A DNA stretch of 64,000 bases from Phyllobacterium myrsinacearum. Lineage in GTDB: Bacteria > Pseudomonadota > Alphaproteobacteria > Rhizobiales > Rhizobiaceae. Every line of letters begins with the position of its first letter. Position 1 is the first letter of the stretch. This document shows positions 4,387 through 48,952 of this stretch, in pieces. The stretch lies in assembly GCF_002980555.1 (NCBI RefSeq), contig NZ_PVBT01000006.1, positions 306,846-370,845 of the forward strand. Reading direction: 5' to 3'. The notes beneath the pieces were generated by a model. The model was not told where the DNA came from, ran no database searches, and worked only from the letters and a program-made list of their open reading frames with translations. A program made the position numbers and the translations under genes.

Positions 4387-5088
4387 TCAGCGCGCCCGTT
4401 GGCCGAACAGGATTTTCTGCGCTTCCTTGTCGTCGGCAAGATTACGGCGTGCTTCCTTGCCCAGATCCCTGCCCCTTTGAACAGCCGGCCGTGCAGCTAC
4501 GGCCTCGAACCAGCGCTTGAGATTGGGAAAATCATTGAGATCCTGCCCCTGATTGGCGTAGGAGACAACCCAGCCGAATGACGCCATATCGGCGATGGAA
4601 TAGTCACCGGCAAGATAGTCCCGGCCTTCCAGACGCCGGTTCATCACGCCATAAAGACGGTTGACCTCGTTGGTGTAGCGGTTGATGCCGTATTCGATCT
4701 TTTCAGGCGCATATTGCCGGAAATGATGTGCCTGCCCCGCCATCGGGCCGAGGCCGCCGACCTGCCAGAACAGCCACTCTTCCACGGCGACGCGCTTGCG
4801 CTCGTCCTGCGGATAGAACTTGCCGAACTTGCGGCCGAGATATTGCAGGATGGCACCGGATTCAAACACGGAGATCGGCTCACCGCCCGGCCCTTCCGGG
4901 TCGATGATCGCGGGCATGCGATTGTTGGGCGCGATCTTGAGGAATGACGGTTCGAATTGCTCGCCCTTGCCGATATTGACCAGCTTGAGATCGTAGGGAA
5001 CCCCAAGCTCTTCCAGCATGATGGAAATTTTCCAGCCGTTGGGTGTCGGCCAATAATAGAGTTCAATCGGCTTCGTCTGCGTCGTCAT
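4387..5088 (-). CDS. Glutathione S-transferase family protein (YfcG/YghU-like)
   Basis: A 233-residue cytosolic protein. The N-terminal thioredoxin fold (residues ~8-90) has YYWPTPNGWKISIMLEEL in place of a catalytic Ser/Tyr-Cys box, then NNRMPAIIDPEG with the cis-proline and VFESGAILQYL, the glutathione gamma-glutamyl site. The helical C-terminal domain holds YSIADMASFGWV, the GST N-capping box. The T-P-N-G-W start resembles the nu class (YfcG, YghU), which act as glutathione disulphide-bond reductases. Substrate unproven. CGGGAGAT precedes the ATG. It diverges from amn across 169 bases. Confidence 0.88.
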   Translation of the reverse strand: MTTQTKPIELYYWPTPNGWKISIMLEELGVPYDLKLVNIGKGEQFEPSFLKIAPNNRMPAIIDPEGPGGEPISVFESGAILQYLGRKFGKFYPQDERKRVAVEEWLFWQVGGLGPMAGQAHHFRQYAPEKIEYGINRYTNEVNRLYGVMNRRLEGRDYLAGDYSIADMASFGWVVSYANQGQDLNDFPNLKRWFEAVAARPAVQRGRDLGKEARRNLADDKEAQKILFGQRAR

Positions 5089-6766: not shown

Positions 6767-6883
6767 TAGAGTAGGCTTTCTATCGGCGGGTTGCCCACCA
6801 AACCGGGCAAATCCTGCTTGGAAACGAAACCAAAATACGTTATTCTTCTGGAGTGGAGATGGACTTTCGCCCACCTCCTTTTT

Positions 6884-6973
6884 CTAGATCGTGAATTGAA
6901 CCCGGATGACCAGCGTCCAGCTAGTCCGGGTTCTTTTCACTTCCAGTGTGATGCTCAGCGGCAGATACCACAT
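6884..6973 (-). CDS. Tiny ORF copy 1 (29 aa, MWYLPL family)
   Basis: Encodes MWYLPLSITLEVKRTR followed by TSWTLVIRVQFTI. A near-consensus Shine-Dalgarno, GGAGGTGA, lies just before the ATG. Two runs of alternating hydrophobic and polar residues (L-S-I-T-L-E and W-T-L-V-I-R-V-Q-F) flanking a basic KRTRTS turn suggest an amphipathic beta-hairpin; this is inference. Against copy 4, codons 1-18 differ at seven synonymous sites and one conservative Val/Met site, so the reading frame looks selected. I do not recognise the family and assign no function. Confidence 0.6.
   Translation of the reverse strand: MWYLPLSITLEVKRTRTSWTLVIRVQFTI
6899..6936 (+). terminator. Terminator-like hairpin downstream of amn
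   Basis: On the plus strand AACCCGGA (6899-6906) pairs with TCCGGGTT (6925-6932) and is followed by CTTTT. The same DNA lies inside tiny ORF 1 on the other strand. Equivalent hairpins occur in copy 2 (7294-7332, followed by seven Ts) and copy 3 (7689-7726). They could stop amn transcripts, or simply reflect the repeat's own structure. Confidence 0.4.
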
Positions 6974-7073
6974 CGCGTCACCTCCAGTTTTGAGAGCAAG
7001 GCCATTGCTATGGTCGGGTGGCCCATCCTCCCGATGCACCGGCTGGCTCGGTGCATGCTGCTTCACTCTCAAA
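6974..7073 (-). promoter_or_regulatory. Structured leader of tiny ORF 1
   Basis: The 5' arm TTTGAGAGT (7065-7073) pairs with GCTCTCAAA (6989-6997), which ends four bases before the GGAGG at 6981-6985. Inside are hairpin A (7036-7054, stem GCACCG/CGGTGC) and hairpin B (7014-7034, TCGGG/CCCGA around a loop containing GATGGGCC). After the stop codon, 6855-6878 forms a 10-bp stem capped by GAAA. Confidence 0.6.
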
Positions 7074-7278
7074 TGCCTGCGTGACGGGCACCTTTGCAAA
7101 TTCCACGAAAACAGCAACGAATACAGGGTTGAGCGCTGAGAAGCTCTGCATTTCACGGTTGTTGCAGCAGGCCGTTTTGAAGTGATAGGCGGATCATCGA
7201 CGGAAAATCGGCTTGGAATTTGGGCCAGAATACCGTATTCTTCTGGAGTGGAGATGGGCTTTCACCCACCTCCTTTTT

Positions 7279-7368
7279 CTAGGATATGAAATGAACCCGG
7301 AGGATCAGTGACCAGCTGCTCCGGGTTTTTTTCATTTCCAGCGTGATGCTCAGCGGCAGATACCACAT
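7279..7368 (-). CDS. Tiny ORF copy 2 (29 aa, MWYLPL family)
   Basis: Encodes MWYLPLSITLEMKKTR followed by SSWSLILRVHFIS, with the same GGAGGTGA ribosome site. It differs from copy 1 mainly after codon 11. On the opposite strand the ORF contains AACCCGGAG/CTCCGGGTT followed by seven Ts, which looks like an intrinsic terminator for plus-strand transcripts. Confidence 0.6.
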   Translation of the reverse strand: MWYLPLSITLEMKKTRSSWSLILRVHFIS

Positions 7369-7468
7369 CGCGTCACCTCCAGTTTTGAGAGCAAGGCCAT
7401 TGCCATGGTCGGGTGGCCCATCCTCCCGATGCACCGGCTGGCTCGGTGCATGCTGCTTCACTCTCAAA
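7369..7468 (-). promoter_or_regulatory. Structured leader of tiny ORF 2
   Basis: Same layout as leader 1, shifted by exactly 395 bases: outer arm 7460-7468, hairpins A and B, inner arm ending just before the ribosome site. The post-ORF hairpin at 7250-7273 has the closing pair T.G where copy 1 has C-G, so pairing is kept. Confidence 0.6.
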
Positions 7469-7673
7469 TGCCTGCGTGACAGGCACCTTTGCAAATTCCA
7501 CGAAAACAGCAACGAATGCAGGGTTGAGCGCTGAGAAGCTCTGCATTTCACGGTTGTTGCAGCAGGCTGTTTTGAAGTGATAGGCGGATCATCGACGGAA
7601 AATCGGCTTGGAATTTGGGCCAGAATACCGTATTCTTCTGGAGTGGAGATGGGCTTTCACCCACCTCCGTTTT

Positions 7674-7763
7674 CTAGATAATGAATCGAACCCGGAGGGT
7701 CAGTGTCCAACTGCTCCGGGTTCTTTTCATTTCCAGAGTGATAACAAGCGGTCTATACCACAT
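7674..7763 (-). CDS. Tiny ORF copy 3 (29 aa, MWYRPL variant)
   Basis: Encodes MWYRPLVITLEMKRTR followed by SSWTLTLRVRFII. This is the most divergent of the tandem three: Leu4 to Arg and Ser7 to Val, while the basic turn, the W-x-L strand and the 29-codon length are kept. An SD-like CTGGAGGTGAAGCA precedes the ATG. Confidence 0.55.
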   Translation of the reverse strand: MWYRPLVITLEMKRTRSSWTLTLRVRFII

Positions 7764-7863
7764 TGCTTCACCTCCAGTTTTGAGAGCAAGGCCATTGCCA
7801 TGGTCGAGAGGCCCATCTTCTCGATGCACCGGCTGGCTCAGTGCATGCTGCTTCACTCTCAAA
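7764..7863 (-). promoter_or_regulatory. Structured leader of tiny ORF 3
   Basis: The outer arm at 7855-7863 pairs with the arm before the ribosome site. Hairpin B (7804-7824) reads TCGAGA/TCTCGA, where copies 1 and 2 read TCGGG/CCCGA: a G-C pair has become A-T with the loop GATGGGCC unchanged. Hairpin A reads GCACTG/CGGTGC, a wobble-compatible change. Confidence 0.6.
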
Positions 7864-8045
7864 CTCAGGATCACTCAATCCGCAACTTCGCAAATCCCGC
7901 ACAAACAGCAACGAATGCAGGGTTGAAGTTTGAAGGCGGTGTGCATGTGAGAGTTGCGGTGATGGTCCGTCACGGAAGGAGCGGAGAATGCGATCCGGCA
8001 TTCGGCATCTTGATTGCGTCGCAATTGACCGTTTAAAGCGTGACC

Positions 8046-35901: not shown

Positions 35902-38900
35902 TTAAAGGGATTTTGTCTGCGTATCGAAAATGGCGCGGGCAAATCTGCCCGTACCGGCAGCACTGGAAATCATGGCGACGCTGAAATTGACCGCGCTTGC
36001 AAGACTGCCGAAATCCGCCAGGCGCAGTGCCGCCGGATAAAGCCATTGCGGCCGTGCAACCTCGGCCGACCGGATCAATTTGCCGCTGTTGCGTATCTCG
36101 ACCCGATAGGCCTCCCGCTCCTCGCCAAGCGGAATTTCGGTGGCCAGCCAGCTGTCCGCGTCAATGCGCCCGCGCCGAATCCAGGTGATATGCAGGTCGC
36201 CGCGGTCATCTGCCCTGCAGCTGAGGTGGACGGGTTCGAGCGGCTCAAGCGCCCGGATGCCTCCGGCGATTGTTACCGTGCTGAAATAGCGGTCGGAGAA
36301 ATCCTGTCCCGCAGCGCCGATGCGCCAGCGCAAGACCAACCCCGTTTCCCGTGCTTTCAATCCCGCCGGCATTACCGCACCGTCGAGAAGGATGAACGGC
36401 GTATCCTTTTCCCGCGGCTGCAGCGCTTCGCGTTCGGTTCCGCATTGCCCGCGCAACAGCCCGGACAAACGCCACCGGTCGGCAGCGATCTCCTCGGCAT
36501 GGTGGAATTGCAGGATTTCCCATTGGCCGTCGGGAGAGGCCAGAAGGGCCGAATTCGCCCCGTTGAAGAGCTGCGGCAATGTGGTGGATCGCAGCGCGCC
36601 GAAGTGGAGATCGATTTCAAGACCGGTATTGTTCAGCAAGCGGCCGCTGGCGCCGCCAGGGCATGCTTTGGCCAGCCTGCCCATCACCGCCCGCTCCGGC
36701 AATACGGCGCGGGCCGCAAAGCCGGTGTCTTCCGGCGAGACATGGACGGATGCACCCGCCCATGGCCTGGCAAAGGCGGCAACCCGCAATTGATCAAGCG
36801 GATTTTCAGCACCCGGCCACATCGGCAGATCGCACAGATGAAAACGCGGACGGCCGAACACCGCCGCCGTTGCCGCCATTGCGGACGCGGGTAATCCCGC
36901 CCGGTCCGCGTGCGGCACATGCCGGGGCAGGCCTTTTGCCTCGACACGGCGGGTTGCGCCGTCCTCAATTGACGTGACGATGTAATCCTTGACTGGCGCG
37001 GAGCCGTCCAGCCGGATACGGCTGCCCACCGTCAATGCAGCATGCTTCCACGGCAATTCGAACGATATGGTCCGCCGGGCGGCGCGGCGTGCCTGCAGCC
37101 AGTCCTCCGCCAGGCCTTTGACCTGCCCCGCCTCAAGCATGGCGGCAACGGCGAGATTTTCGGTTCCCTTGCCGTCCGGCCGGCTGGCGGATGCCATCGC
37201 CACCTGATAGTCGAGCATGGCGTCGCGATAGGCGATTTCGACCCTAGCAGGCTGCTCCATGATTTCATGCAGTTTCTGCTGCACCGGCCCCCTGTCGTCA
37301 GGCTCGACGAATTCATCGATCAGGGTGGTTTGCGCAGGCATACGCGCCGCGCTTTGAAACACCAGCGTCGCACCGTCTTCGAAAGCGTTGATGCCGAACA
37401 CCTCGAGCAGCGGCTCAAGGACCGACCGGGCATGGGCAGGCTCTTCAACAATCAAACCACTGACAAAGCCATCTGCCGCGCTCGCATCCACCCCGTCAAC
37501 ACCGAAATCGGCGAGAACAGCGCCAATCAGCTCATCGAGTGCAACCCCGGAAAGCCTGCCGTTGAGCCAATGTCCCGACGTCCAATTGTCGCCATCGGAC
37601 CAGAGCTTGCGGCTGAGGGGAAATTCCGGAAACGGCCTCGTATCCCAGGCCCAGACGTAAACGCGGCTTGTATTCAGCATGCTGCCGCCATGGCTGCGCC
37701 AATGGTCTAGATGGGCGCGTAGAAAACGGTTCTGCGCGAGGTCGCTGCGGCCATGACCAGAAAAATACGGAAACGCCCCCTCGGAGGATTTGGCATCGGG
37801 AAAGACATTGGGCTGATTGGGGCCCTTGTCGACAGCCGGACAACCCAATTCCGTCAGCCAGACTGGCTTACCCATCGGCTGCCACGCCGTGGCTTGGGCG
37901 CTCTCGACGCCGCCCTTGCGATTGTAATGCGGGTTTTTCCACCAGGCCTCGATGTCCTTGTAGCGGTAGACCCATGGCTTGCCCGATCCGTCGGTGACCG
38001 GCGTGCGCCGCCGTGCGGTTCGATCCGCATCCGACACATAATACCAGTCAAAGCCCTCGCCGCTGGCAATCTGCCCTTGCAGAGCTTTGAGATCATAGGG
38101 GCCGGAAAAACCATTGGCGCTCGGGGCGCTGTAGTCCTCGTCGCGCCAGTCGCTGAGCGGCATGTAATTGTCGACCCCGACCGCGCCGATGGCCGGATGC
38201 GCCCACAGCGGATCAAGATGGAAGAAAACGTCGTTCGATCCGTCCTGCGGGTGATGACCGAAATATTCGGTCCAGTCCGCGCCGTAGGTCAAAATACAGC
38301 CACTGCCGAGCACGGCTCGGACATCGTCCGCCAGCGCGCAAAGGCCGGAGACAAAGGGAAAACTGTCACCCGTTCCCCTGATGCTGGTCAGACCGCACAG
38401 TTCCGAGCCGAGCAGAAAGGCATCCACACCGCCGGCGCAGACGGCAAGATGCGCCAGATGCAGGATAAAGCGCCGATACCCCCAGTCATCGGCCTTGCCA
38501 CGGTAGATCACCGATCCGTCATCGGTTCCGAACGAGCGGATCTCGGCCGCCCCCAGGAAAGCGGCGACCTCTGCGGCCGCCGCATCCGTGCCATTGCTGC
38601 TGCCCGGCCGATAGGGCGCCGGATGGCAGCTGATACGGCCGCGCCACGGATAGGCCGCCTGCGTGATACCGCCATGGGGATCGGGCAAAGTATTACCGGC
38701 AGCGATATCGAGCATCAGGAATGGATAGAGCGTTACCTTCAGGCCCCGCGCCTTCGCTGCGCGGATCGCCTCGATGACGCTGCGGTCCGACGGCGTGCCG
38801 CCATAGGCGGCGCAATCGCCGCTGCGCGACATCAGATGTGCCCCGTCGCGATCGACATTGCCTGCCCGCCACGCCTCGCTTTCGTCATAGCCCTCGCGGT

Positions 38901-39726
38901 CCATCACGCCCGGCCGGATGCGGCAATGGCCAGCGCGCAGATCCGTGCCGAACCACGGCACGACAATGGCAACATTTTCCAGACTGGGACAAAGCGCCTG
39001 CAATTCGTCGAGCGAAGCCTGCCAGTCGGTTGCGCCGCGCAGGCAATTGCGGTTCAGGCCGCGCGTTTCGCCGGGTGCGGGCTCGCAGGTGACCGGGGTG
39101 GGCGACAGACCGAATTCGGTGGCCCCGGGAATGAGCGCGACCGCCTTGAGATCGCGGGCAAGCGCGGCGACGGCGCGTACCACCTCGAACTGGAATTGCG
39201 GTATGCGATTGCCATATACCTCAAGCGGAAACCGCTCGAACACCACATAGGCGGTGTTGCGATAGGCCGGCGCGTTGCCGGTTCCCTGTTTCGCCTCGAT
39301 CAGCGGATCGGGCAATTGCGACGCACTGCCCTTGTGAACGCGCAGCGTAACCGCATTCTGGTCCACTTCCCTGCCGTCAGCCCAGATCCGCCTGACAAGG
39401 CTGATTTCACCCTCCGCCAGCGCAATGGCAAAATTGCCAGCATAGGAATAGTCCGTCACCTTCGGCCCGCCCTTGGCACCACTCCGGTGCGTGGACTTCA
39501 CTTCCTCGAAGCGGGTCGCCCAGATGAGGGTGCCGGTCAGCCGCACCGCGCCATAGACTTTCGGCAGCGCGGCACCCTCCTCGGCGGTCATCGGCTTCAT
39601 TGAAGCCAGGCGCGGCCCCTCGATATGCTTTGTCCCGGAGAAGGCCCGGTCGATCAGATAGGCGCCCAGCGAACTCACGGCGCTGCCGATATAGGCGCCG
39701 ACCCCTTGAAGAATAAGCGTGGCCAT
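35902..39726 (-). CDS. GTA megatron/host-specificity tail protein (g15-like)
   Basis: A 1274-residue tail-tip protein, close in length to Rhodobacter capsulatus GTA g15. The N-terminus (LILQGVGAYIGSAVSSLGAYLIDRAFSG..GPRLASMKPMTAEEGAALPKVYGAVRLTGTLIWATRFEE) is the phage hub module. The middle is a TIM-barrel-like domain (for example DAFLLGSELCGLTSIRG, VWLTELGCPAVDKGPNQPN) and the rest is beta-rich adhesion modules. It closes the tail gene series g11-g15. The frame is intact, so the particle could be functional. Confidence 0.9.
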   Translation of the reverse strand: MATLILQGVGAYIGSAVSSLGAYLIDRAFSGTKHIEGPRLASMKPMTAEEGAALPKVYGAVRLTGTLIWATRFEEVKSTHRSGAKGGPKVTDYSYAGNFAIALAEGEISLVRRIWADGREVDQNAVTLRVHKGSASQLPDPLIEAKQGTGNAPAYRNTAYVVFERFPLEVYGNRIPQFQFEVVRAVAALARDLKAVALIPGATEFGLSPTPVTCEPAPGETRGLNRNCLRGATDWQASLDELQALCPSLENVAIVVPWFGTDLRAGHCRIRPGVMDREGYDESEAWRAGNVDRDGAHLMSRSGDCAAYGGTPSDRSVIEAIRAAKARGLKVTLYPFLMLDIAAGNTLPDPHGGITQAAYPWRGRISCHPAPYRPGSSNGTDAAAAEVAAFLGAAEIRSFGTDDGSVIYRGKADDWGYRRFILHLAHLAVCAGGVDAFLLGSELCGLTSIRGTGDSFPFVSGLCALADDVRAVLGSGCILTYGADWTEYFGHHPQDGSNDVFFHLDPLWAHPAIGAVGVDNYMPLSDWRDEDYSAPSANGFSGPYDLKALQGQIASGEGFDWYYVSDADRTARRRTPVTDGSGKPWVYRYKDIEAWWKNPHYNRKGGVESAQATAWQPMGKPVWLTELGCPAVDKGPNQPNVFPDAKSSEGAFPYFSGHGRSDLAQNRFLRAHLDHWRSHGGSMLNTSRVYVWAWDTRPFPEFPLSRKLWSDGDNWTSGHWLNGRLSGVALDELIGAVLADFGVDGVDASAADGFVSGLIVEEPAHARSVLEPLLEVFGINAFEDGATLVFQSAARMPAQTTLIDEFVEPDDRGPVQQKLHEIMEQPARVEIAYRDAMLDYQVAMASASRPDGKGTENLAVAAMLEAGQVKGLAEDWLQARRAARRTISFELPWKHAALTVGSRIRLDGSAPVKDYIVTSIEDGATRRVEAKGLPRHVPHADRAGLPASAMAATAAVFGRPRFHLCDLPMWPGAENPLDQLRVAAFARPWAGASVHVSPEDTGFAARAVLPERAVMGRLAKACPGGASGRLLNNTGLEIDLHFGALRSTTLPQLFNGANSALLASPDGQWEILQFHHAEEIAADRWRLSGLLRGQCGTEREALQPREKDTPFILLDGAVMPAGLKARETGLVLRWRIGAAGQDFSDRYFSTVTIAGGIRALEPLEPVHLSCRADDRGDLHITWIRRGRIDADSWLATEIPLGEEREAYRVEIRNSGKLIRSAEVARPQWLYPAALRLADFGSLASAVNFSVAMISSAAGTGRFARAIFDTQTKSL

Positions 39727-39738
39727 GCCGGGTGATTC

Positions 39739-40170
39739 CTATCTGCGAGCGGGAAAGGCGAAGACCGCCGCGATGCGTTTTCGCCATTGCGGCACCAGCG
39801 CCGATTCCATGACCCGGTGCCCCTCATAGGCGTGAATGAAGCGTTCCTCGCCCGTCACAATGCCGAGATGCTTGGCTGCCATGCCGTCCCGCCAGCGGAA
39901 GAGGATGAGATCGCCGGTGACCACATCCTGCACGGGCTTCTCGGCCATGTGACGCCTCGCTGCCTGCACAAGCGGATCGCCGCGCCCTGCTTCCGCCCAG
40001 TCGGCGGAATAGACGGGAATCGCTTCCGGTTCGCATCCGTACAAGGTGCGCCAGATGCCGCGCACCAGCCCAAGACAATCACAGCCGACCTGGAGCGTGG
40101 AGCCGCCGTGCCGGTATGGCGTACCAATCCAGCGGCGCGCTTCGGCGACAACGTCGGTTGCGATGGTCAT
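39739..40170 (-). CDS. GTA NlpC/P60 peptidoglycan peptidase (g14-like)
   Basis: A 143-residue cysteine peptidase predicted to cut cell-wall peptide during DNA entry. Catalytic Cys32 lies in VGCDCLGLVRG and His101 in AAKHLGIVTG; TPYRHGGS is the usual family start. Overlap with g13 is ATGA; 12 bases separate it from g15. Confidence 0.93.
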   Translation of the reverse strand: MTIATDVVAEARRWIGTPYRHGGSTLQVGCDCLGLVRGIWRTLYGCEPEAIPVYSADWAEAGRGDPLVQAARRHMAEKPVQDVVTGDLILFRWRDGMAAKHLGIVTGEERFIHAYEGHRVMESALVPQWRKRIAAVFAFPARR

Positions 40171-41045
40171 GGCACCAGCACGCCGCCGTCGAAATTGCCC
40201 GATCCGTCGGCATAATTGTAGGCGGCGTCATTGCCCGGCAGATGCGGAAATCCGCGAAAATTGGCCGCATTGCTGAATTTCGTCTTGCAGGTGCCAAAGC
40301 TCTTGTCACAGCCCGGCTGCAGCGAAAACATATCGCCTTTCCGCATGTCCGGCATCGGCGAATCGCGCAGATCGAGCCGGATATCGTTCCCCGCTGTCTC
40401 CTGCCCGGTCACCACATTGGTGCGGCCGGCATTGCCGCCGGAATCCCAGGTGAGCACGCCATTGCGGAACCAGTTCGCAGCGGCCGCATGCAGGCCGCTG
40501 GCCAGAAAGGCGCGGTCCGATATCACGCCTGCAACGCTGCCGTTCTCTTTGCCGCCGCTATAGCCGCAGCGTGCATCACCGATCTCCGCATCGCAAAGCC
40601 GCGTGATCCGCCGCCCCTTCACCCTGTCGAGATCGACGGCGCTGCTTTTCAGTTCCGCCACGAAACGGCCGCCGCTGCGGGTAACCGTGCCGATCCTTGC
40701 CCGCCGTAGGAGGACACGCTGCTCGGGGGCCGCCCAATTGACGAGGAATGTTTCGACATGGGCATTGTCGAACGCACCGCATTCCACATCGCTCTCGATA
40801 ATGCGGTGCGACGACAGCGCGCCCTCGACCTCAGCGCCGTCGACGGCCAGTCCCAGTGCGCTTGTCGCCTCGCTGGCCATCAGGCCCGTCTGCGGTTCGC
40901 AAGCCACGCGCTCAATATTCAATATCCGGTCATGGTCGGTGAAACCCAGGACAACCTCGTCAGCCCGGCGTATAATCCAGCAAAAACAATGGGTTGTCAC
41001 ATCGCCTGCAAGATGTGATTCAAGCTCGGGCATAAGATGGCTCAT
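40167..41045 (-). CDS. GTA baseplate hub protein, DUF2163 (g13-like)
   Basis: A 292-residue protein with DUF2163 at the N-terminus (HCFCWIIRRADEVVLGFTDHDR) and a C-terminal domain with four cysteines in two pairs (RLCDAEIGDARCGYS and PGCDKSFGTCKTKF). In the R. capsulatus GTA structure the equivalent protein binds an iron-sulphur cluster through four Cys, which this pattern matches. Coupled by ATGA overlaps to g12 and g14. Confidence 0.9.
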   Translation of the reverse strand: MSHLMPELESHLAGDVTTHCFCWIIRRADEVVLGFTDHDRILNIERVACEPQTGLMASEATSALGLAVDGAEVEGALSSHRIIESDVECGAFDNAHVETFLVNWAAPEQRVLLRRARIGTVTRSGGRFVAELKSSAVDLDRVKGRRITRLCDAEIGDARCGYSGGKENGSVAGVISDRAFLASGLHAAAANWFRNGVLTWDSGGNAGRTNVVTGQETAGNDIRLDLRDSPMPDMRKGDMFSLQPGCDKSFGTCKTKFSNAANFRGFPHLPGNDAAYNYADGSGNFDGGVLVP

Positions 41046-41671
41046 GTCTTCACCTCAATGATCGGAATAGTGGGTATTTCGCCCGCCTTGAACGATTTGA
41101 TGCTGACGGTCAGCCTGTCCGCATTGAAGCGGGCGGGAACGTCGAAGGCGAAACCGGCAGTCACATCCGTCCCCGAAGGAGGTACGCGGTCTGGTTTGAA
41201 CGTGACTTGGCCCGTCAGCACATCGACCGTGAAATCGGCCGGCTCCTGCTTTTCCAAGCCGGCCACCGCAATACGCACGGTGCCCGGCACCGGCTTGGTG
41301 ATGGTGCGCCGATAGTCGCCATAGCGTTTCTGCAGCTGGAAAGCCGCCTGTTTCCCGTCACCCGAACCCAGATGCTGATCCGTCGCCGTAATCGGTTTTC
41401 CAGCCGCACACGACTGATGATCGAAAGGATCGCGGAAACGGAATGCATACAGCGAACCGCGCCGGGCTTCGAAGAAGCCAAGAACCGTTTCCAGATCGGC
41501 CAGCGATCGCACACCGGTTCCCGCATCATAGTGATGACGCGACGAAGCCCAGCGCGCATTGCGCTGTTCGTGCCCCGAGGTCAGCGCTACAATTTCGTTC
41601 TTCCATTCCGGTCCGCCCGTTGCGCCAAAGGATATGCCGAGCGGAAACCGGGCATCATGGAAAGCCTCCAT
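41042..41671 (-). CDS. GTA distal tail protein, DUF2460 (g12-like)
   Basis: A 209-residue protein, MEAFHDARFPLGISFGATGG at the start, then the DUF2460 hallmarks RNARWASSRHHYDAGTGVRSLADLETVLGFFEARRG and FRFRDPFDH. It forms the distal tail ring above the hub. The start at 41671 leaves 11 bases after the tape-measure stop. Confidence 0.92.
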   Translation of the reverse strand: MEAFHDARFPLGISFGATGGPEWKNEIVALTSGHEQRNARWASSRHHYDAGTGVRSLADLETVLGFFEARRGSLYAFRFRDPFDHQSCAAGKPITATDQHLGSGDGKQAAFQLQKRYGDYRRTITKPVPGTVRIAVAGLEKQEPADFTVDVLTGQVTFKPDRVPPSGTDVTAGFAFDVPARFNADRLTVSIKSFKAGEIPTIPIIEVKT

Positions 41672-41682
41672 CGCATTGTTTC

Positions 41683-42213
41683 CTATAGGGTGCGCGTGCC
41701 GCGGCGCACTGCGCGCGCCAGCATGCCGGTCAATTGGGCTTCCGATTTGCGGAAGGAGGCGGCGTCGGGCGTATTCACATGCAGGACCACCTGCACCGGC
41801 GCACCGCCGCCCTGGGCGGCAACACCCAGCCTGCCGTCGGCGCCGCGCGCGAGCGGCATGATGGCCTCCGCACCCGCCTCGCCCATCAGTCCCAGCGAAC
41901 CGCCCGCGCCAAAATAGGTGGGGCTGGAAACCACGCCGCCCTTCGCATGGGGTTTTGCCGCACCCAGCAGGCCTGAAAACATTGACGCGCTCCAATCCTC
42001 GAGCGATTTCATGCCTGTCGTCAGCGCCATCCTGGCCATGTCCCGCCCCAATTGCCGCAGCACATCGCCGAGGTCGTTGCCGCTCATCACGGCACTTTTC
42101 AATGACCCGGTCAGGGCGCGGCCGAATTGCTCGGACTGGCCCTTCAGGTCGGACAAGGCCTTCTCGAAGCCGGATGTATCGGCATCGATCTCCACCGTCA
42201 TTTTATCGTTCAT
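41683..42213 (-). CDS. GTA tail tape-measure protein (g11-like)
   Basis: A 176-residue tape-measure protein, very short compared with phages, which fits the short GTA tail. It begins MTVEIDADTSGFEKALSDLKGQSEQFGRALTG, has a helical middle, and a glycine-rich hydrophobic segment (GGSLGLMGEAGAEAIMPLARG) typical of phage tape-measure C-termini. ATGA overlap with the chaperone gene upstream. Confidence 0.88.
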   Translation of the reverse strand: MNDKMTVEIDADTSGFEKALSDLKGQSEQFGRALTGSLKSAVMSGNDLGDVLRQLGRDMARMALTTGMKSLEDWSASMFSGLLGAAKPHAKGGVVSSPTYFGAGGSLGLMGEAGAEAIMPLARGADGRLGVAAQGGGAPVQVVLHVNTPDAASFRKSEAQLTGMLARAVRRGTRTL

Positions 42214-42437
42214 GGCTGTTCCTCGCCCAAAGCCGGCTCATCGGGAAACGTCTGTATCAACTGTTCGAACCGCGGACGGGAGAGGCCTGCGTGTCCCGTC
42301 GGCTCGGCAAAGGCCGCGCAGATTTCCCGTGGCGTCATTGCCCAGAAGTCGTGTGTGGAAAGCCGCAGCAGGCCAAAACCTGCGCCCATCAGGGCCGCCC
42401 ACGGAAAGGCCGGGCCGGAATCTGCTGCGGCATTCAA
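42210..42437 (-). CDS. GTA tail assembly chaperone, small (g10.1-like)
   Basis: A 75-residue protein with FPWAALMGAGFGLLRLSTHDFWAMTPREICAAF, the pattern of the small protein between g10 and g11 in Rhodobacter-type GTAs that helps tape-measure assembly. ATGA overlaps on both sides. Confidence 0.88.
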   Translation of the reverse strand: MNAAADSGPAFPWAALMGAGFGLLRLSTHDFWAMTPREICAAFAEPTGHAGLSRPRFEQLIQTFPDEPALGEEQP

Positions 42438-42775
42438 GGGTTTGCGCTGGATTGCTCCGTCTTTGATTCACCGAAGGTTGCCGCCAGCAGTTCACTGACG
42501 ATGCGGGCAAAACCCGTTGCCCCGCCCTCCGCCCGCATCTGCGCCGCCTCCTCCGCCGTTATGCTGTTGCCGCCACCCCTCAGCCCGGCCGCAATGATCT
42601 TTGCTGCGTCACGGGCCGAAAGCGTACCGCCGGAAAAGCGCTGCAACAGCGCGCCCATGTCGGCCGCCATGAAGGCGTGTTCCAATTCGGCCAATGCGCC
42701 CAACGTCAGGCACAATGTCCATTCGCGCCCGTCCAGGACGGCGCTGATCTCACCGCGATGCCGGTTTGCCATCAT
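42434..42775 (-). CDS. GTA tail assembly chaperone (g10-like)
   Basis: A 113-residue GTA-gp10 family protein: NRHRGEISAVLDGREWTLCLTLGALAELEHAF, then SARDAAKIIAAGLRGGG and AEEAAQMRAEGGATGFARIVSELLAATFG. It is thought to chaperone the tape measure before tail-tube growth. ATGA overlaps with g9 and g10.1. Confidence 0.92.
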   Translation of the reverse strand: MMANRHRGEISAVLDGREWTLCLTLGALAELEHAFMAADMGALLQRFSGGTLSARDAAKIIAAGLRGGGNSITAEEAAQMRAEGGATGFARIVSELLAATFGESKTEQSSANP

Positions 42776-43185
42776 GCCGCCTCGGTAAAGCGGATGAGGC
42801 CGGCGGATTCCAGCGCGATGTCAAAGGTCACCTCGCCATCATGCTTGCCGCCATATTCGAGCGCGGTGATCTGGAAAGACCCGTGCAGCGAGCCGAAATC
42901 CGGCAGGATGATCTGCCATGTCAGGATATCGCCGGCAAAAAATGCCCGCCGGATCAGCGCGTCCGACTGCGCATCCTTGAACAGGCCCGAGCCGCTGATC
43001 GACGCGCGCTGTACGCCGCTGCCGCCCAAAAGTTCGCGCCAGCGCCCGGCCGCATCGGCGTCGGTCACATCGATGGTTTCCGTGTTGAAGGCGATGCGGT
43101 TGGACCGCAGCCCGGCACAGGTAACGAACCTGCCGCCTGCCTCCTGCAGCTTGAGCAGGATATCCTTGCCTCTCTGGGCGCCCAT
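42772..43185 (-). CDS. GTA major tail tube protein (g9-like)
   Basis: A 137-residue TP901-1-type tail tube protein. MGAQRGKDILLKL at the start, TIDVTDADAAGRWRELLGGSGVQRASISGSGLF in the middle and a beta-strand C-terminus. The start at 43185 follows GGAGGACTTCAAACA; an in-frame extension lacks a ribosome site. Confidence 0.92.
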   Translation of the reverse strand: MGAQRGKDILLKLQEAGGRFVTCAGLRSNRIAFNTETIDVTDADAAGRWRELLGGSGVQRASISGSGLFKDAQSDALIRRAFFAGDILTWQIILPDFGSLHGSFQITALEYGGKHDGEVTFDIALESAGLIRFTEAA

Positions 43186-43241
43186 TGTTTGAAGTCCTCC
43201 ATGCAAAACGGACACCCGGCGGATGTCCTGCCGTGTGCGGC

Positions 43242-43646
43242 CTAGATATCTTCCGTCACCGCGCGGTACCGCATGATACCGGCGAAGCTGTCGCGGCTGT
43301 CGGCCAGCGCCGTCTGCGTGTATTCGAGGCGGAGGCTGACGAGTGTGTGCCCTTCCAGGGCCAGCGGCGCTGACAGCAGGAGCCGCTCGATCCGGTCCAC
43401 AATGTCGAAGACGGTTTTCCGGCTGGCCCGATGTGTCCAGACATGCAACGTCAGCAAATGTTCGCCGCCGCGTTCGGTCGATGTGCTCCAGTCATAGGTG
43501 CTGGCCGTTCCGAAGGTGACGTAGGGAAACTCAGCCTGCTGCGGCACATGATCGAAAACCCGCCGGTTCACCCATTCATTGAGCCCCGCATCCGCCTTGA
43601 GGGCCTGCAACAGTGCCTTTTGCAGTTGAAGCCCGGCACTGGTCAT
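43242..43646 (-). CDS. GTA tail terminator, DUF3168 (g8-like)
   Basis: A 134-residue DUF3168 protein: LQLQKALLQALKADAGLNEWVNRRVFDHVPQQAEFPYVTFG, then LTLHVWTHRASRKTVFDIVDRIERLL. It caps the tail tube and joins it to the head. The ATG overlaps the stop of the small ORF at 43643 (ATGA). Confidence 0.9.
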   Translation of the reverse strand: MTSAGLQLQKALLQALKADAGLNEWVNRRVFDHVPQQAEFPYVTFGTASTYDWSTSTERGGEHLLTLHVWTHRASRKTVFDIVDRIERLLLSAPLALEGHTLVSLRLEYTQTALADSRDSFAGIMRYRAVTEDI

Positions 43647-43789
43647 CGCACAGGCTTTCGTTTGTCCGGCGCATCCTGTTCGTGTCCAGCCGGTCTTGAC
43701 GCGTCTGCCCCCGCTTCGCGCAGTTCGATCGCGCACCAGCGCAGCGTCCGGATCAGATCCTCAACCGTTATTTGCAGGCTCAGTTTCAT
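43643..43789 (-). CDS. Small coupled ORF between GTA g7 and g8 (48 aa)
   Basis: Encodes MKLSLQITVEDLIRTLRWC followed by AIELREAGADASRPAGHEQD and a charged tail. GGAGGGGCT precedes the ATG. Its ATG overlaps the g7 stop and its stop overlaps the g8 ATG, both as ATGA, the coupling seen throughout this operon. The first ~27 residues can form an amphipathic helix; the rest is polar and probably disordered. I know of no GTA gene named at this place, so no function is given. Confidence 0.65.
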   Translation of the reverse strand: MKLSLQITVEDLIRTLRWCAIELREAGADASRPAGHEQDAPDKRKPVR

Positions 43790-44121
43790 AGCCCCTCCTC
43801 CCGTGCCCGGCAGACGAGATATCGTCCGGTTTCATCGGGATCGTGAATTGTCACCAGCCGGAAAATGCGGGTTCCCTTGCGCAGGCGCATGCCGCTTTTC
43901 AGATCATCCCGCCCCCGCAGCGTGATGCGATGTGTGGTTTCGGCCAGGCCCTGGCCGCCATAAAACACCGTACCGGCGCCCGCCGGCTCGATATGCGCCC
44001 AGACCGTCGCTATTTCCTGCCATTGTTCGACGCTGCCGTTCACCACGTCATCGGCAAGAACCGCCCGTTCCAGCTGCAGTTCATGCGCCAGTTTGCCGGG
44101 ATCAATGAACAGGGTCGGCAT
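43786..44121 (-). CDS. GTA head-tail adaptor (g7-like)
   Basis: A 111-residue head-completion protein: DPGKLAHELQLERAV, WAHIEPAGAGTVFYGGQGLAETTHRITLR and FRLVTIHDPDETGRYLVCRAREE, matching the SPP1 gp16-like adaptor family. Its start overlaps the g6 stop by one base. Confidence 0.9.
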   Translation of the reverse strand: MPTLFIDPGKLAHELQLERAVLADDVVNGSVEQWQEIATVWAHIEPAGAGTVFYGGQGLAETTHRITLRGRDDLKSGMRLRKGTRIFRLVTIHDPDETGRYLVCRAREEGL

Positions 44122-44681
44122 CAGAGCGAGACCCTTCGCCAGAGATTGACGACCCGCTCGAATGCAGGCGTGAGAGAGGCGGGATGATCGGCCGGGCCAA
44201 AGGTCGCGCGAAACTCATACCAGTGGGCAACCAGGGTCATCAGCGCGTGTTTGAGCGCATCCGGCACGTCCACCCCCATTTCGCCGAACCCGGCAATGAC
44301 ATCGACCTCCAGTCCGCCCAGCCCATGGGCTGGGGATTGCAGATGCAGCCGTGCCGGACGGGTTGCGGTCTCCAGATGCATCTCCGCTGCCGGAAGAATG
44401 ACCGGCACCCCGTCAGGCTCGTAGGCCGTGACGCAAGCGACGGATTGCACGGGATAGCGATCGATTCTTATCAGGCCGTCGCTTGGCCAGCGGTCGATAT
44501 AAAACCGCAACCGCTGTTTGATCAGCACCAGTCCGGTCAGGGCCTCCAGTGTTTCGCGGGCCGCCTTCAGCAGCCCGCAGAGCAGCGCATCGTCGCCGGT
44601 TCCGCTCAACCGCAGGAACTGGCGCAGATCCGCCAGCGCCACCGGCTCCACAGCCGGCGGCGTTACAACAGTGATGGTCAT
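44121..44681 (-). CDS. GTA head-tail connector (g6-like)
   Basis: A 186-residue connector: VVTPPAVEPVALADLRQFLRLSGTGDDALLCGLLKAARETLEALTG, then LRFYIDRWP and the helix-rich PDALKHALMTLVAHWYEFRATF, as in the phage phiE125 gp8/HK97 gp6 family. It forms the ring below the portal. 61 bases separate it from the capsid gene. Confidence 0.9.
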   Translation of the reverse strand: MTITVVTPPAVEPVALADLRQFLRLSGTGDDALLCGLLKAARETLEALTGLVLIKQRLRFYIDRWPSDGLIRIDRYPVQSVACVTAYEPDGVPVILPAAEMHLETATRPARLHLQSPAHGLGGLEVDVIAGFGEMGVDVPDALKHALMTLVAHWYEFRATFGPADHPASLTPAFERVVNLWRRVSL

Positions 44682-44742
44682 GGGAATTCCTGGATTGGTT
44701 GAGAGAGGTGCCGGGCTGTATGCCGATGCTTATGTCAGCGCG

Positions 44743-45993
44743 TCATACGGCGAATTTCAGCAGCTTGATCGCATCGAAATCCTGCACGCCGCCGCCCACG
44801 CGCTTGGTCGTGTAAAACAGCACGTAGGGTTTGGCGGAATAGGGATCGCGCAGGACCCGCACGCCGGTGCGATCCACCACCAGATAGCCGCGGGCGAAAT
44901 CGCCGAAGGCAATGGCAGCGCCGCTGGTTGTCATCGGTGGCATCGCTTCCGCCTCGGTCAGCCGGAAGCCCAGCAGAGAGGCCTGCTGGCCGGGTGCTGC
45001 GGGCGGTGTCCACAGATAGTTGCCGTCATTGTCCTTGAGCTTGCGCACGGCAGCCTGCGTCTTGCGGTTCATCACCCAGCTGGCATTCTGCCGGTATCCG
45101 GCCTTCAGCGTGTAAACCGTATCAAACAGGATATCCGAGGCGTTCGAGGCTGCAAAGCCGCCGGTAATCCCGGTCGAAACGCTGCCCAGCTTGCCCCAGC
45201 TCCAGATCGCATCGGCGACACTGTCATAGGTCAGGAAACCCTTGGGCTGGCTGGTGCCATTGCCGTTGATGAAGGCCTGCCCCTCCTGTTCGGCGAAAGC
45301 GGTCTCGACCTCGGAGGATATCCATTGTTCCACGTCAACCGCCGCATCGTCCAGCAGCGACGAGGATGCGGCCGGCATGGCGTAAAGCTCCATGGTGGGA
45401 AATTGCAGCTCCGCCAGCTTGGAGGCTTCCGTCTGCGGGCGGGCGTCGGTTTCCCCAACCCAGCCCACGGCCGGTCCCTTCACTGCAAACGGTTTTTTCA
45501 GCACGGAGCCGGATACCTGCCGTACCGTTGCGAGGGCACGGATGGGCGAGAGCGCCGCCAGCCGCGTGCCGATGTCGCGCTCCAGTTCCGGCGGCACGAG
45601 ATAGCCGCCATCCGTGGCCGCGCCGATGGACAGGGCCTTGGCTTCGATGCTGCGCACGCCATGCTCGTCCCCGCGCCTGATATAACTGTCGAAGGCGGTC
45701 TTGTGCTCCAGCGACAGCAAGGGGCTCGTCCCGGTTTCCAGGGCGGGCCGCGCCTTCTTCAGCAGCATATGGTCGATCATGCGCTTCTGTTCATCCAGCG
45801 CGTGATTGATGCGTTCGACCTTTTCATCGGTCAGAACATCGGCGCTGGCACGTTTTTCAATTTGCTTGATCCGGTCGTCATTGTTCTGGCGAAACTCGTC
45901 GAAAGCCTGCATGAAGTCATTGAATGCTTCGGCCACATTCTGAGTGCCCGCGCTCTTGGCTTCGGGGGCCGGTGCGGAAAATTGTTCGGTCAT
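44743..45993 (-). CDS. GTA HK97-type major capsid protein (g5-like)
   Basis: A 416-residue capsid protein. Residues ~20-110 are a charged coiled-coil delta scaffold domain (FNDFMQAFDEFRQNNDDRIKQIEKRA) removed by the protease after assembly. The shell domain has GGYLVPPELERDIGTRL, WISSEVETAFAEQEGQAFINGNGTSQPKGFL and GDFARGYLVVDRTGVRVLRDPYS. Shine-Dalgarno AAGGA is seven bases before the ATG at 45993. Confidence 0.95.
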   Translation of the reverse strand: MTEQFSAPAPEAKSAGTQNVAEAFNDFMQAFDEFRQNNDDRIKQIEKRASADVLTDEKVERINHALDEQKRMIDHMLLKKARPALETGTSPLLSLEHKTAFDSYIRRGDEHGVRSIEAKALSIGAATDGGYLVPPELERDIGTRLAALSPIRALATVRQVSGSVLKKPFAVKGPAVGWVGETDARPQTEASKLAELQFPTMELYAMPAASSSLLDDAAVDVEQWISSEVETAFAEQEGQAFINGNGTSQPKGFLTYDSVADAIWSWGKLGSVSTGITGGFAASNASDILFDTVYTLKAGYRQNASWVMNRKTQAAVRKLKDNDGNYLWTPPAAPGQQASLLGFRLTEAEAMPPMTTSGAAIAFGDFARGYLVVDRTGVRVLRDPYSAKPYVLFYTTKRVGGGVQDFDAIKLLKFAV

Positions 45994-46028
45994 TTCAAAT
46001 CCTTTGTGTGTGAAGTAGAGAGAATGAT

Positions 46029-46568
46029 TCAAGCGCGGAGCCGCTGGGCGGCGGCCCGCAAGGTTGCCGCCAGCGCCGCATGAACGTCCGCCGGCTGCGC
46101 CTTGACCTGCCCGACGCGGGCCGAGGGCAGCATTGGAAATGTCACCACCGAAATTTCCCAGAGGTCCGCCTCGAGAATTCGCCGGATGCCCGCACCGTCG
46201 GCCTTGGCCCTGACGGTGCGAAAGCCGATGGACAGCCCGTCAATTGCCCCGGCGCGCATCAGTTCCAGCACCTCGCGCCCACGGGTAACGCCGGTGGTCA
46301 AACGGCCCTCGACATAGAGCCCCCTCCGGTCCTCGGCGATCCGGGTCCAGACGCCGATGGGTTCGTTGGGATCGTGCTGCCAGAGCATGCGAATGCCCGC
46401 GGCGCCACGCTTGCCAATGGACCCGGCAAAGGCGCCGGGAGCGATGACATCCTTGCCAAGGTCGATCTCGCCGAACAGGCTGGCATAGCCGGAAAAACTG
46501 CCGTCCAGCTCAACCCGTTCGATGGCCACTCCAGCGAATTTCTTCTCGAACCTCTTATTTCTCAACAT
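46029..46568 (-). CDS. GTA prohead protease (g4-like)
   Basis: A 179-residue HK97-family serine protease that matures the head. GYASLFGEIDLGKDVIAPGAF is the signature start, catalytic His is in LWQHDPNEPIGV and Ser in GLSIGF. I chose the ATG at 46568 (MLRNKRFEKKF), preceded by AAAAGGGA, over one at 46625, because the longer form overlaps the upstream gene by 71 bases. Confidence 0.9.
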   Translation of the reverse strand: MLRNKRFEKKFAGVAIERVELDGSFSGYASLFGEIDLGKDVIAPGAFAGSIGKRGAAGIRMLWQHDPNEPIGVWTRIAEDRRGLYVEGRLTTGVTRGREVLELMRAGAIDGLSIGFRTVRAKADGAGIRRILEADLWEISVVTFPMLPSARVGQVKAQPADVHAALAATLRAAAQRLRA

Positions 46569-46926
46569 TGGCGATATCCCTTTTGCCGGAAGGACTTGAG
46601 TGATCCTGCGGAGGTTTTGATTCACCGATACGGGCCGTCAGACGGGCAAAGATGCCAAGCGCGGTCCACGCGGCAAGACTGGCGGCCGCGGCGCCCATCA
46701 GCATCAGTTCGCCATCGCCGAGCTGGCCGCGAATGTCGAGTTCGGATGCAATCTTCACACCGGCCAGCCCGCCAAAAGCCAGGCCGCAGACAATGCCAAC
46801 GATAAAGCGGATGGCTGCCTCGCTCTTGTCCCTCGGCAGCATATAGGCGAGTGAGACAGCGGAACCTGCAATGGCACCGGCTGCCTTTGCCGCCAGAATC
46901 CAGGCGGCATCGGACCAGTTTGTCAT
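46555..46926 (-). CDS. GTA-associated small membrane protein (DUF6107-like)
   Basis: A 123-residue protein with three or four hydrophobic segments (WILAAKAAGAIAGSAVSLAYM, FIVGIVCGLAFGGLAGV, LMGAAAASLAAWTALGIFA) and a polar tail. It occupies the place of g3.5 between portal and protease. The ATG at 46926 is spaced correctly from GGAGA; another ATG at 46932 overlaps the portal stop. A membrane role in GTA assembly or release is possible but unproven. Confidence 0.75.
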   Translation of the reverse strand: MTNWSDAAWILAAKAAGAIAGSAVSLAYMLPRDKSEAAIRFIVGIVCGLAFGGLAGVKIASELDIRGQLGDGELMLMGAAAASLAAWTALGIFARLTARIGESKPPQDHSSPSGKRDIANVEK

Positions 46927-46928
46927 GA

Positions 46929-48107
46929 TCATTCTCCGGAAAATTTGTGCGGCCTGCGGGCGTATCCCACGGCCTCTCTTTTCTCGTCATCACTGAGGAA
47001 CGGCGCAGCCGACACGCGCTGCCACAGCGCATCCCGTTCCATCGACAATCCGTCGATGCGATCGAAATCCGGCTCCAGCCGCAGCCCGGCGCCATAAACC
47101 GGCCCTAGCCAATTGCCGATGGCCTTGGCGGTGCGGGTGATCAACGGGATCACCGTCAGGCGATAGAAGGCGCGATTGGCTTCGGCATAATTGGCATAGG
47201 TGTTGTCGCCGGGGATGCCGAGCAGCATGGGCGGAACACCGAAGGCCAGGGCAATATCGCGGCTGGCGGCATTCTTGGCGGCAATGAAATCCATGTCGCG
47301 CGGCGACAGGCCCATGGATTTCCAGTCCAGCCCGCCCTCGAGCAGCAGGGGCCGGCCGGCCTTGGCTGCGCCGGTGTACCCTTCTTCCAGTTCGGTCTTC
47401 AGCCGCTCGAACTGGGCCTCGGTCAGCCGCGCCGTGTCGGCAGGCGCATAGACGAGCGCACCGGACGGCCGTGCCGAGTTATCGAGCAGCGCCTTGTTCC
47501 AGACGCCGGAGGCATTGTGAATGTCGAGGGCCATCAGGGCTGCTTCGAGCGGTGCAAATCCATAGTGGTCATCCAGCGGATGAAACAGTTTGAGATGCAG
47601 CGCCTGCCCGTCATCGAGCGGGATGGTGCGCTTGCTCGCGCCAACACCATAGCAAAGCGCCAGCGGCCATCCATTGTCACCCGTGACCACGCGTATCCGG
47701 TCCGGGCGCAGCAGATGCAGTTCGCAGGGACCGCTCCCGCTGCTGACCCTTTCCAGATAGGCGTTGCCGGACAAAAGGAGATGACCGTAGAGCGTTTCGA
47801 ACAGGCCGGCCCCATCGGCGCCGCGATGGGGATGTGACAGAAGGTCAAGCAGCGGATGCTGCGTGTGTTCCGTCCGTCCCTCGTAGAGCAGCCAGGGCGT
47901 AGCGGCAGCGGCTTCCGCCAGCAGACGCACGCAGCGGTAGACGATGGGATTGCGCATGAATCCCTGCCGGGACAATCCGGTGTAGCCGCCCTGCGACCAG
48001 CGCGCTTCACGATCGAACTGCAGGGCGACAAACCCTTGCGCAGCCTTGGTTTGCAGAGGCGGGTTTTCGTTCGCGGCGCGGCGGCGCCACGGCCAATGAA
48101 GTGCCAT
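46929..48107 (-). CDS. GTA portal protein (g3-like)
   Basis: A 392-residue HK97-type portal: GFMRNPIVYRCVRLLAEAAAATPWLLYEG, GLFETLYGHLLLSGNAYLE, WKSMGLSPRDMDFIAAKNAASRDIALAFGVPPMLLGIPGDNTYANYAEANRAFYRLTV. It forms the DNA channel of the head. Its ribosome site is weak. It is parted from terminase by 845 bases containing two tiny-ORF units on the other strand, so it may need its own promoter or read-through across them. Confidence 0.93.
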   Translation of the reverse strand: MALHWPWRRRAANENPPLQTKAAQGFVALQFDREARWSQGGYTGLSRQGFMRNPIVYRCVRLLAEAAAATPWLLYEGRTEHTQHPLLDLLSHPHRGADGAGLFETLYGHLLLSGNAYLERVSSGSGPCELHLLRPDRIRVVTGDNGWPLALCYGVGASKRTIPLDDGQALHLKLFHPLDDHYGFAPLEAALMALDIHNASGVWNKALLDNSARPSGALVYAPADTARLTEAQFERLKTELEEGYTGAAKAGRPLLLEGGLDWKSMGLSPRDMDFIAAKNAASRDIALAFGVPPMLLGIPGDNTYANYAEANRAFYRLTVIPLITRTAKAIGNWLGPVYGAGLRLEPDFDRIDGLSMERDALWQRVSAAPFLSDDEKREAVGYARRPHKFSGE

Positions 48108-48242
48108 GGGACATGTTCTCTTTGTTGGGTGAAACGGATCAGATCGCCGGAACAACCGCACGCCGAATAGCGCACTGTCGATTCAACCCTGCATTCGTTG
48201 AAGGTTCGGCAAAATCCGGCAATGTGTTGAACCGGAACCAGT

Positions 48243-48341
48243 TTTGAGAGCGAAGCAGAACGCACCGAGCCAGCCGGTGCACCGGGACGATGGGCCTCCC
48301 GGCCTCGGCAAGGGCCTTGCTCTCAAACTTGGAGGTGAACG
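48243..48341 (+). promoter_or_regulatory. Structured leader of tiny ORF 4
   Basis: Outer stem TTTGAGAGC (48243-48251) with GCTCTCAAA (48319-48327); hairpin A 48262-48280; hairpin B 48282-48302 (CCGGGA/TCCCGG, loop CGATGGGCC); ribosome site GGAGG at 48331-48335. The outer stem has C-G where copies 1-3 have T.G. Confidence 0.6.
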
Positions 48342-48834: not shown

Positions 48835-48952
48835 GAAACGGGGGACGGGCGAAAGCTCGTTCCCTACTCCAAGACTGTACAACAATTTCGCCGCCTTTCC
48901 AAGCAACCCGGGGTTTAGTGCCTTTCCTGCTTAAATAGAAACAGGAAAGGCT

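Follow-up and report, generated by a model that had tools for sequence, protein, structure and literature searches.

A repeated 29-codon reading frame of rhizobia and related bacteria: candidate for a new type of toxin-antitoxin switch

The DNA analysed here (the window) is a stretch of 64,000 nucleotides from Phyllobacterium myrsinacearum (contig NZ_PVBT01000006.1). It contains five open reading frames (ORFs) of 29 codons each, three on the minus strand at 6884–6973 (copy 1, MWYLPLSITLEVKRTRTSWTLVIRVQFTI), 7279–7368 (copy 2, MWYLPLSITLEMKKTRSSWSLILRVHFIS) and 7674–7763 (copy 3, MWYRPLVITLEMKRTRSSWTLTLRVRFII), and two on the plus strand at 48342–48431 (copy 4, MWYLPLSITLEMKRTRTSLQLTIRIQFIF) and 48745–48834 (copy 5, MWYLPLSITLEMKRTRTCLQLTIRIQFIH). 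The ribosome site 5' of each ORF is CTGGAGGTGA or CTTGGAGGTGA. The original prediction, made from the letters of this DNA, had placed five ORFs of equal length with strong ribosome sites at these positions, and all of them were found there. For copies 1 and 4 it had also listed seven silent differences and a conservative one, and our recount over codons 2–18 gave exactly these numbers (seven synonymous, one nonsynonymous). The dN/dS check that it proposed for the copies came out mixed: by counting methods only, pN/pS was 0.30 for copies 1 and 4 over the entire ORF, while the ten pairs of window copies ranged from 0.15 to 1.00, the latter value being that of copies 1 and 2. With ratios of up to 1.00 among the ten pairs, the five window copies by themselves are weak evidence of selection.

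Each ORF is preceded by a structured leader that carries the Shine-Dalgarno (SD) sequence, at 6974–7076 (copy 1, with CTGGAGGTGA; 5' edge approximate), 7369–7471 (copy 2) and 7764–7866 (copy 3) on the minus strand and at 48240–48341 (copy 4, with CTTGGAGGTGA) and 48643–48744 (copy 5) on the plus strand. Further upstream, on the same strands, lies a motif at 7115–7131 (copy 1, CAACCCTGTATTCGTTG, element-specific) and, as CAACCCTGCATTCGTTG, at 7510–7526, 7909–7925, 48184–48200 and 48587–48603 (copies 2 to 5). The ORFs are followed by a 3' hairpin with a short segment, which is CACTCC, complementary to the SD, in copy 1 (6850–6883), an anti-SD segment in copies 2 and 3 (7245–7278 and 7640–7673), CACTCC in copy 4 (48432–48467) and TACTCC in copy 5 (48835–48870). 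On the opposite strand, antisense RNAs are predicted at 6850–6937 (copy 1, ends approximate), 7245–7332 (copy 2, with the terminator-like CCGGGTTTTTTT) and 7640–7727 (copy 3) on the plus strand and at 48378–48467 (copy 4) and 48781–48870 (copy 5) on the minus strand. Promoter-like sites for these RNAs lie, on the respective strands, at 6817–6844 (copy 1, one mismatch), 7212–7239 (copy 2), 7607–7634 (copy 3), 48473–48500 (copy 4, CTTGGAA-N16-GTATT) and 48876–48903 (copy 5). The last of these is weaker and falls outside the four matches with at most one mismatch; four of five copies thus have the site at this threshold, with 0.1 expected by chance.

The family extends well beyond the window. The genome of origin holds 11 copies in all, six of them outside the window, and a search with the copy 4 peptide matched 22 of 40 genomes, namely all 21 of Phyllobacterium and one of 19 others, which places the multi-copy family that had been proposed beyond chance. 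A profile of 21 peptides matched 17 of 347 genomes of the order (12 of 135 genera), and a covariance model of the leader only matched 21 of 21 Phyllobacterium genomes, 20 of 347 genomes (14 of 135 genera) in the order sample and 2 of 289 genomes class-wide. One of these two was the genome of origin itself; the other, a weak match in which neither SD nor ORF could be seen by eye, was set aside. An exact DNA pattern searched in 84,980 species returned 63 stretches, all titled as Hyphomicrobiales or 'Rhizobiales bacterium', and also 12 viral contigs. The titles name Phyllobacterium, Rhizobium, Aureimonas, Shinella, Microvirga, Mesorhizobium, Xanthobacter, Pseudovibrio and others, which we take to be genera of the Hyphomicrobiales. 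At an E limit of 10, matches were obtained in 45 records of an annotated plasmid collection and 14 of an annotated phage collection, the latter including 10 Rhizobium phages and, at E 0.9, two Ochrobactrum records; one copy is on plasmid pRmeGR4a of S. meliloti GR4 (L045). Among the matches listed, which cover 40 of the 45 plasmid records, either no feature was annotated at the match or the record carried no annotation. These results show that the family is patchily spread on chromosomes, plasmids, phages and gene transfer agent (GTA) clusters. Rhizobium phage records of 115–122 kb (among them L040) each carry one unannotated copy, and one copy is present in a 116-kb viral contig (L134).

Copies 4 and 5 lie in a GTA cluster that includes a GTA_TIM gene, and are flanked there by the portal and terminase genes. 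This cluster occupies 35902–50374 of the window (terminase, portal, protease, capsid and tail genes and GTA_TIM), and the elements in it are inserted against the direction of its genes. The portal gene is present in 15 genomes of the genus, and a comparison of the site in 14 of these (all but G009) found an element in six (G000, G002, G008, G012, G013 and G016), a decayed remnant in G017 and no element in seven (G001, G003, G005, G006, G010, G011 and G018). When one empty site (G010) was compared with the filled sites of G008 and G002, the gap was longer by 364 and 376 bp in the filled sites and the added DNA started at the upstream CAACCCT motif, a compact insertion at this one site; no target duplication was seen there by eye. 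When up to one mismatch was allowed, the motif CAACCCTGCATTCGTTG had six occurrences in the genome of origin, all of them at an element. The CAAC-N9-GTTG motif marks the left edge of each window cassette and is element-specific in this genome; it may be an operator or may hold the −35 of a sense promoter.

Other contexts differ. Copies 1–3 are located between AMP nucleosidase and endonuclease/exonuclease/phosphatase genes, as are the elements of four further loci (L014, L015, L076 and L123), and at Rhizobium-type loci the element lies between baseplate-hub-like and TIM-barrel genes. GTA genes were found within the flank in 5 of 63 genome loci and in 11 of 12 viral contigs, a figure that reflects the content of a virus collection. 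One 'Bacteriophage sp.' record (L042, MW462191.1, 45326–55409) has 89–97% protein identity to the window GTA genes; the identity extends to the LysE and penicillin-binding-protein-side flank, and the record resembles a stretch of bacterial chromosome. An unrelated palindromic insert (AAACTTAGA.. type) lies in the leaders of L107 and L124 and in L291, where it breaks up the leader or the entire element; it is perhaps a second small repeat family landing in these cassettes.

Is the 29-codon frame coding, or is it incidental to a structured RNA? Leaders were located by a nucleotide profile, the training leaders being cut 14 bases 5' of the start codon. Because all 45 training leaders came from ORF-bearing elements, the leader set is not blind, and three separate readings were therefore made. 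An SD-preceded start and an ORF of 26–31 codons followed 202 of 234 distinct leaders, compared with a mean of 32.3 and a highest value of 44 in 20 rounds of shuffling. Such an ORF was also found behind 85 of 103 distinct leaders from leader-model loci (part of the matches listed); by eye, the other 18 include frameshifted copies and some missed by the rule, and some of them retain the leader and hairpins though the ORF is broken. Three genomes of the order sample have leaders but were missed by the peptide profile (G033, G178 and G352); all eight of their leaders are followed by such an ORF. The 76 sites of the exact pattern were selected by the start of the ORF, and 71 of them have an ORF of 25–31 residues.

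The substitution pattern agrees with the coding reading. Across 110 sequences, pN/pS was 0.53 in frame, compared with 0.84 and 1.59 in the shifted frames and 0.96, 0.71 and 1.46 on the other strand. For codons 2–12 it was 0.47 (0.79 and 1.90 in the shifted frames) and for codons 17–27 it was 0.65; as silent sites are also restrained by RNA structure, these ratios are probably conservative. The 29-codon frame is thus coding and under selection, and the multi-copy microprotein with protein-level selection suggested in the original prediction is backed by both the leader-then-ORF counts and the in-frame pN/pS. Type I toxins are recognised in part by a small selected ORF, usually of under 60 residues, and the frame is an ORF of this kind.

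From an alignment of 61 main-form peptides, AlphaFold predicted a beta-hairpin with strands at residues 6–14 and 19–27 (mean pLDDT 79.4, but a pTM of only 0.28). The beta moment of the two segments is 2.49 and 2.39, compared with helical moments of 0.68 and 0.59 and shuffled values of 0.97 and 0.92. Both results favour the two alternating strands around a basic turn that had been read from the peptide earlier. The alpha-helical transmembrane domain of membrane-associated type I toxins is absent, the model being a beta-hairpin with a beta moment of 2.4–2.5 against 0.6–0.7 for a helix. A divergent form of the peptide (e.g., MSRKRWTLEISLTKYADRWRLTVRINFAR) was uncovered through the leader search. 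Its nine non-redundant members, chosen by the string DRW or ERW, have 28–29 residues and are hydrophobic at positions 8, 10, 12, 21, 23, 25 and 27, as in the main form, and the mean net charge is +5 in both forms. With the divergent form as the query, no match was obtained in plasmids. A possible third form, VRFELRFKVKRARRRLAVYFRALFRIT, is found at L212 (G351:C5) behind a weak leader match (E 2e-4) and has its own stem on the opposite strand.

Database searches returned no family match in Pfam (2 peptides) and no match in NCBIfam or PADLOC (5 peptides), and PHROGs gave only two families of unknown function at E 0.07–0.09. In Pfam (2 peptides), NCBIfam and PADLOC (5 peptides), no sequence match to known type I toxin families was obtained; we take Hok, Ldr, Ibs, TisB and Fst to be present in the curated libraries searched. 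A fold search of the PDB with the hairpin had a best E of 4.8.

The leader is a structured RNA. Its helices covary: 98.4% of the cells are paired, both sides vary in 8 of 10 pairs, and 65 compensatory cells were counted against 17.6 in shuffled alignments, with no slid control coming near. In the ten aligned leader pairs read on the ORF strand, there are 29 G-U cells versus 7 non-standard cells. A brute-force stem count points the opposite way to this aligned count, with A-C exceeding G-U on the ORF strand in the leader and ORF hairpin (128:55, 105:50 and 156:74) and in the SD–3' duplex (141 versus 96), and with the two about even in the 3' hairpin (A-C 167 versus G-U 195). From base composition alone, the A-C/G-U ratio would be 1.6 for the leader and 1.3 for the ORF part, which explains the A-C excess only in part. 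We treat the brute-force count as unusable for the strand question, yet it stands as an adverse result. Stability relative to shuffles favoured the ORF strand for the leader (57 of 76), the 3' hairpin (74 of 76) and the SD-to-3' domain (74 of 76); the ORF hairpin weakly favours the opposite strand (p 0.044).

Minimum-energy folds of three full-length elements gave z values of −6.4, −7.8 and −6.6. In the folds of L129 and L041, the CACTCC segment is the pairing partner of the SD, and the bases after the SD are paired with ORF codons; when copy 4 was folded with extra flanks, the SD–CACTCC helix was absent. Folds running from the leader to CACTCC were made for 105 elements (109 minus four that could not be parsed). 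In these folds, counted without a shuffle control, the ribosome site pairs with the 3' CTCC segment in 89, is mostly paired in 95, and is accompanied by at least two paired start-codon bases in 73; the pairing with the 3' segment is predicted in all five window copies. Pairing of the SD with the 3' end is better within an element than after partners are swapped for 59 of 76 elements in one set and 64 of 109 in another, a preference that is real but modest.

On the sense strand, the promoter signal is weak (9 of 109 elements, 3.5 expected), no terminator-like site was found within 80 nt in any of the 109, and LexA boxes were found neither upstream nor downstream (0 of 109). Rfam covariance models gave no match in the window at the gathering score and five permissive matches below the cut-offs. 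In L041, a gene annotated at 4882–4995 (POI1126 gp29, hypothetical protein) overlaps the structured leader and ends just 5' of the peptide start; it is probably a spurious ORF.

Transcription signals on the opposite strand are far more regular. Just beyond the 3' hairpin, a TTG-N16–18-TATA-like pattern is present in 93 of 109 elements, whereas 6.3 would be expected from shuffles; the other orientation has none, and upstream there are 5 against 6.4 expected. Its commonest bases are CTTGGAA, a spacer of 16–17 and GCTATATT, a few bases before GGAG. Inside the ORF, 100 of the 109 elements have an antisense terminator-like stem with a T-tract (2.8 expected from shuffles; 18 on the sense strand). 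The predicted antisense RNA has a median length of 90 nt (range 85–101, n = 192). A scan of both window stretches with E. coli consensus models found no promoter and no antisense terminator; stems of this kind fall outside the loop limit of 8 that the scan applies. Of 54 codons for Arg-14, 51 are AGA or AGG, an oddity that can be explained by the antisense terminator-like stem at this place. The basic turn has a second reason, as its codons are also the U-tract and stem of the terminator-like signal on the opposite strand. The divergent form has, by eye, a different stem with a T-tract at the same place. In some of the antisense RNAs, the 3' hairpin includes an anti-SD-like CACCTCC.

From these signals, we infer both an ORF-strand transcript and an antisense RNA of ~90 nt, and regulation of the ORF by cis-antisense RNA and mRNA fold-back is probable. 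What goes beyond the original prediction are the promoter-like and terminator-like signals for an antisense RNA, the leader structure and the predicted sequestration of the ribosome site.

A type I toxin-antitoxin module is the best overall reading of convergent signals for transcription, an mRNA predicted to be closed, copies in tandem, carriage on mobile replicons and a peptide that is small and cationic. We consider it reasonably likely that the copies are self-contained cassettes of ~370 bases that resemble type I toxin-antitoxin systems and encode a presumptively toxic peptide. On one strand, the cassette would encode a structured mRNA consisting of the branched-hairpin leader, the strong SD, the 29-codon ORF and the 3' hairpin. 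In the full-length mRNA, the SD would pair with the 3' CACTCC and the start region would be partly paired with ORF codons; as a consequence of such pairing, the mRNA should be translationally closed until it is processed or refolded. An antisense RNA of ~90 nt would start from an alphaproteobacterial sigma-70-type promoter just past the 3' hairpin, stop at an intrinsic terminator that overlaps roughly codons 13–25 of the ORF, and pair with the ORF's second half and the 3' UTR, leading to degradation or a translation block. Should the antisense RNA be lost, through loss of the cassette, plasmid or prophage or a halt in transcription, translation of the stable mRNA would yield a beta-hairpin peptide, cationic and amphipathic, that probably attacks the inner membrane. 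The predicted antisense RNA leaves the SD uncovered and binds the closing CACTCC, and it could therefore free the ribosome site unless degradation is faster. More tentatively, the elements might constitute an undescribed, order-wide type I family with a cationic beta-hairpin toxin, an antitoxin terminator within the toxin codons (a single DNA hairpin would encode the basic turn on one strand and stop transcription on the other), and GTA-nested copies that, as addiction modules, prevent the loss of a domesticated virus.

How does the predicted cassette compare with known systems? In txpA/RatA of Bacillus subtilis, a type I system, the toxin mRNA and the antisense overlap at their 3' ends. A 3' overlap of toxin mRNA and antisense RNA, with RNase III decay and SD sequestration, is also described for bsrG/SR4 in a passage of PMC8309996. 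The cassette is like these two B. subtilis systems in the 3' overlap, but its antisense terminator-like site lies within the ORF and its peptide is a predicted cationic beta-hairpin with no Pfam match. The full-length mRNAs of Hok and AapA are closed by pairing of the 3' end with the SD. The cassette mRNA is predicted to be closed in the same way as in hok/sok and aapA/IsoA, whereas its predicted antisense RNA targets the 3' half of the ORF and the 3' UTR rather than the ribosome site, and its peptide is without a transmembrane helix. In E. coli, ibs/Sib has a very short ORF in repeated copies, and both ZorO and Ibs are helical membrane peptides. For zorO/orzO of E. coli, a passage of PMC8309996 gives a ZorO of 29 residues, repeated copies, an RBS held in structure, and pairing of OrzO upstream of the RBS. 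Both systems share with the cassette the very short ORF, the repeated copies and the structured RBS; they differ in that OrzO acts upstream of the RBS and in that ZorO and Ibs are helical, while the cassette peptide is a predicted beta-hairpin. SmelA075 and SmelA099, multicopy Rhizobiales sRNAs for which part of PMC3927594 describes three or four hairpins and the loop CCUCCUCCC, share with the element, in a comparison by description only, the multiple copies, the Rhizobiales hosts and a CCUCC-type motif; their hairpin build and loop set them apart.

Must the peptide be a toxin? The regulatory anatomy is independent of toxicity, and the ORF could encode a microprotein that serves some other purpose, be it antimicrobial, regulatory, anti-phage or GTA-related, and that is held down by a cis-antisense RNA and harmless to its own cell. 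A cationic amphipathic beta-hairpin resembles antimicrobial hairpins, and the family is carried by Rhizobium phages and within GTA clusters. However, there is no consistent partner gene in the contexts examined, and a closed mRNA together with antisense control in tandem is presumably what dangerous products need. We therefore regard this explanation as unlikely, if the nearest competitor to the toxin-antitoxin cassette. A pair of complementary non-coding RNAs (an sRNA with a decoy or sponge) and an incidental ORF would account for the strong ORF-strand structure, the antisense transcription signals, the CACCTCC of some antisense hairpins and the copies that have lost their ORF. It is improbable in view of the ORFs behind 202 of 234 and 8 of 8 leaders, the lowest pN/pS in the true frame, and a divergent form that alters the RNA sequence yet retains the peptide length and strand pattern. 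Still less probable is a MITE-like repeat with no cellular role: the elements are multi-copy and hairpin-rich, with a discrete insertion at the one compared site, but they show coding selection and conserved opposite-strand signals, the same sites are kept across species, and the one site showed no target duplication by eye. Least credible is a role as leader peptide or attenuator of some gene further downstream, the other suggestion of the original prediction, which a short ORF followed by strong hairpins would fit; the next gene other than an element itself is a convergent AMP nucleosidase for copies 1–3 and a convergent terminase for copies 4–5, so that no downstream gene in the window could be governed by the ORFs, contexts elsewhere differ widely, and with no co-directional gene beside the window copies we disfavour it and keep only the microprotein part of that interpretation.

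In the open-licence literature covered, we found no description of this family and no paper for the peptide strings. The cassette, carried by rhizobia and related bacteria, appears to be a toxin-antitoxin switch of a kind not described before, with a toxicity that is presumed. Even if the peptide is non-toxic, a coding ORF that shares ~40 bases with an antisense intrinsic terminator would be an unusual overlap of two genes. If the toxin-antitoxin reading is true, the Hyphomicrobiales, which include symbionts and plant and animal associates, would gain a native RNA-controlled toxin family, a beta-hairpin would be added to a toxin class described as helical, and there would be a testable reason for the persistence of GTA clusters and large plasmids.
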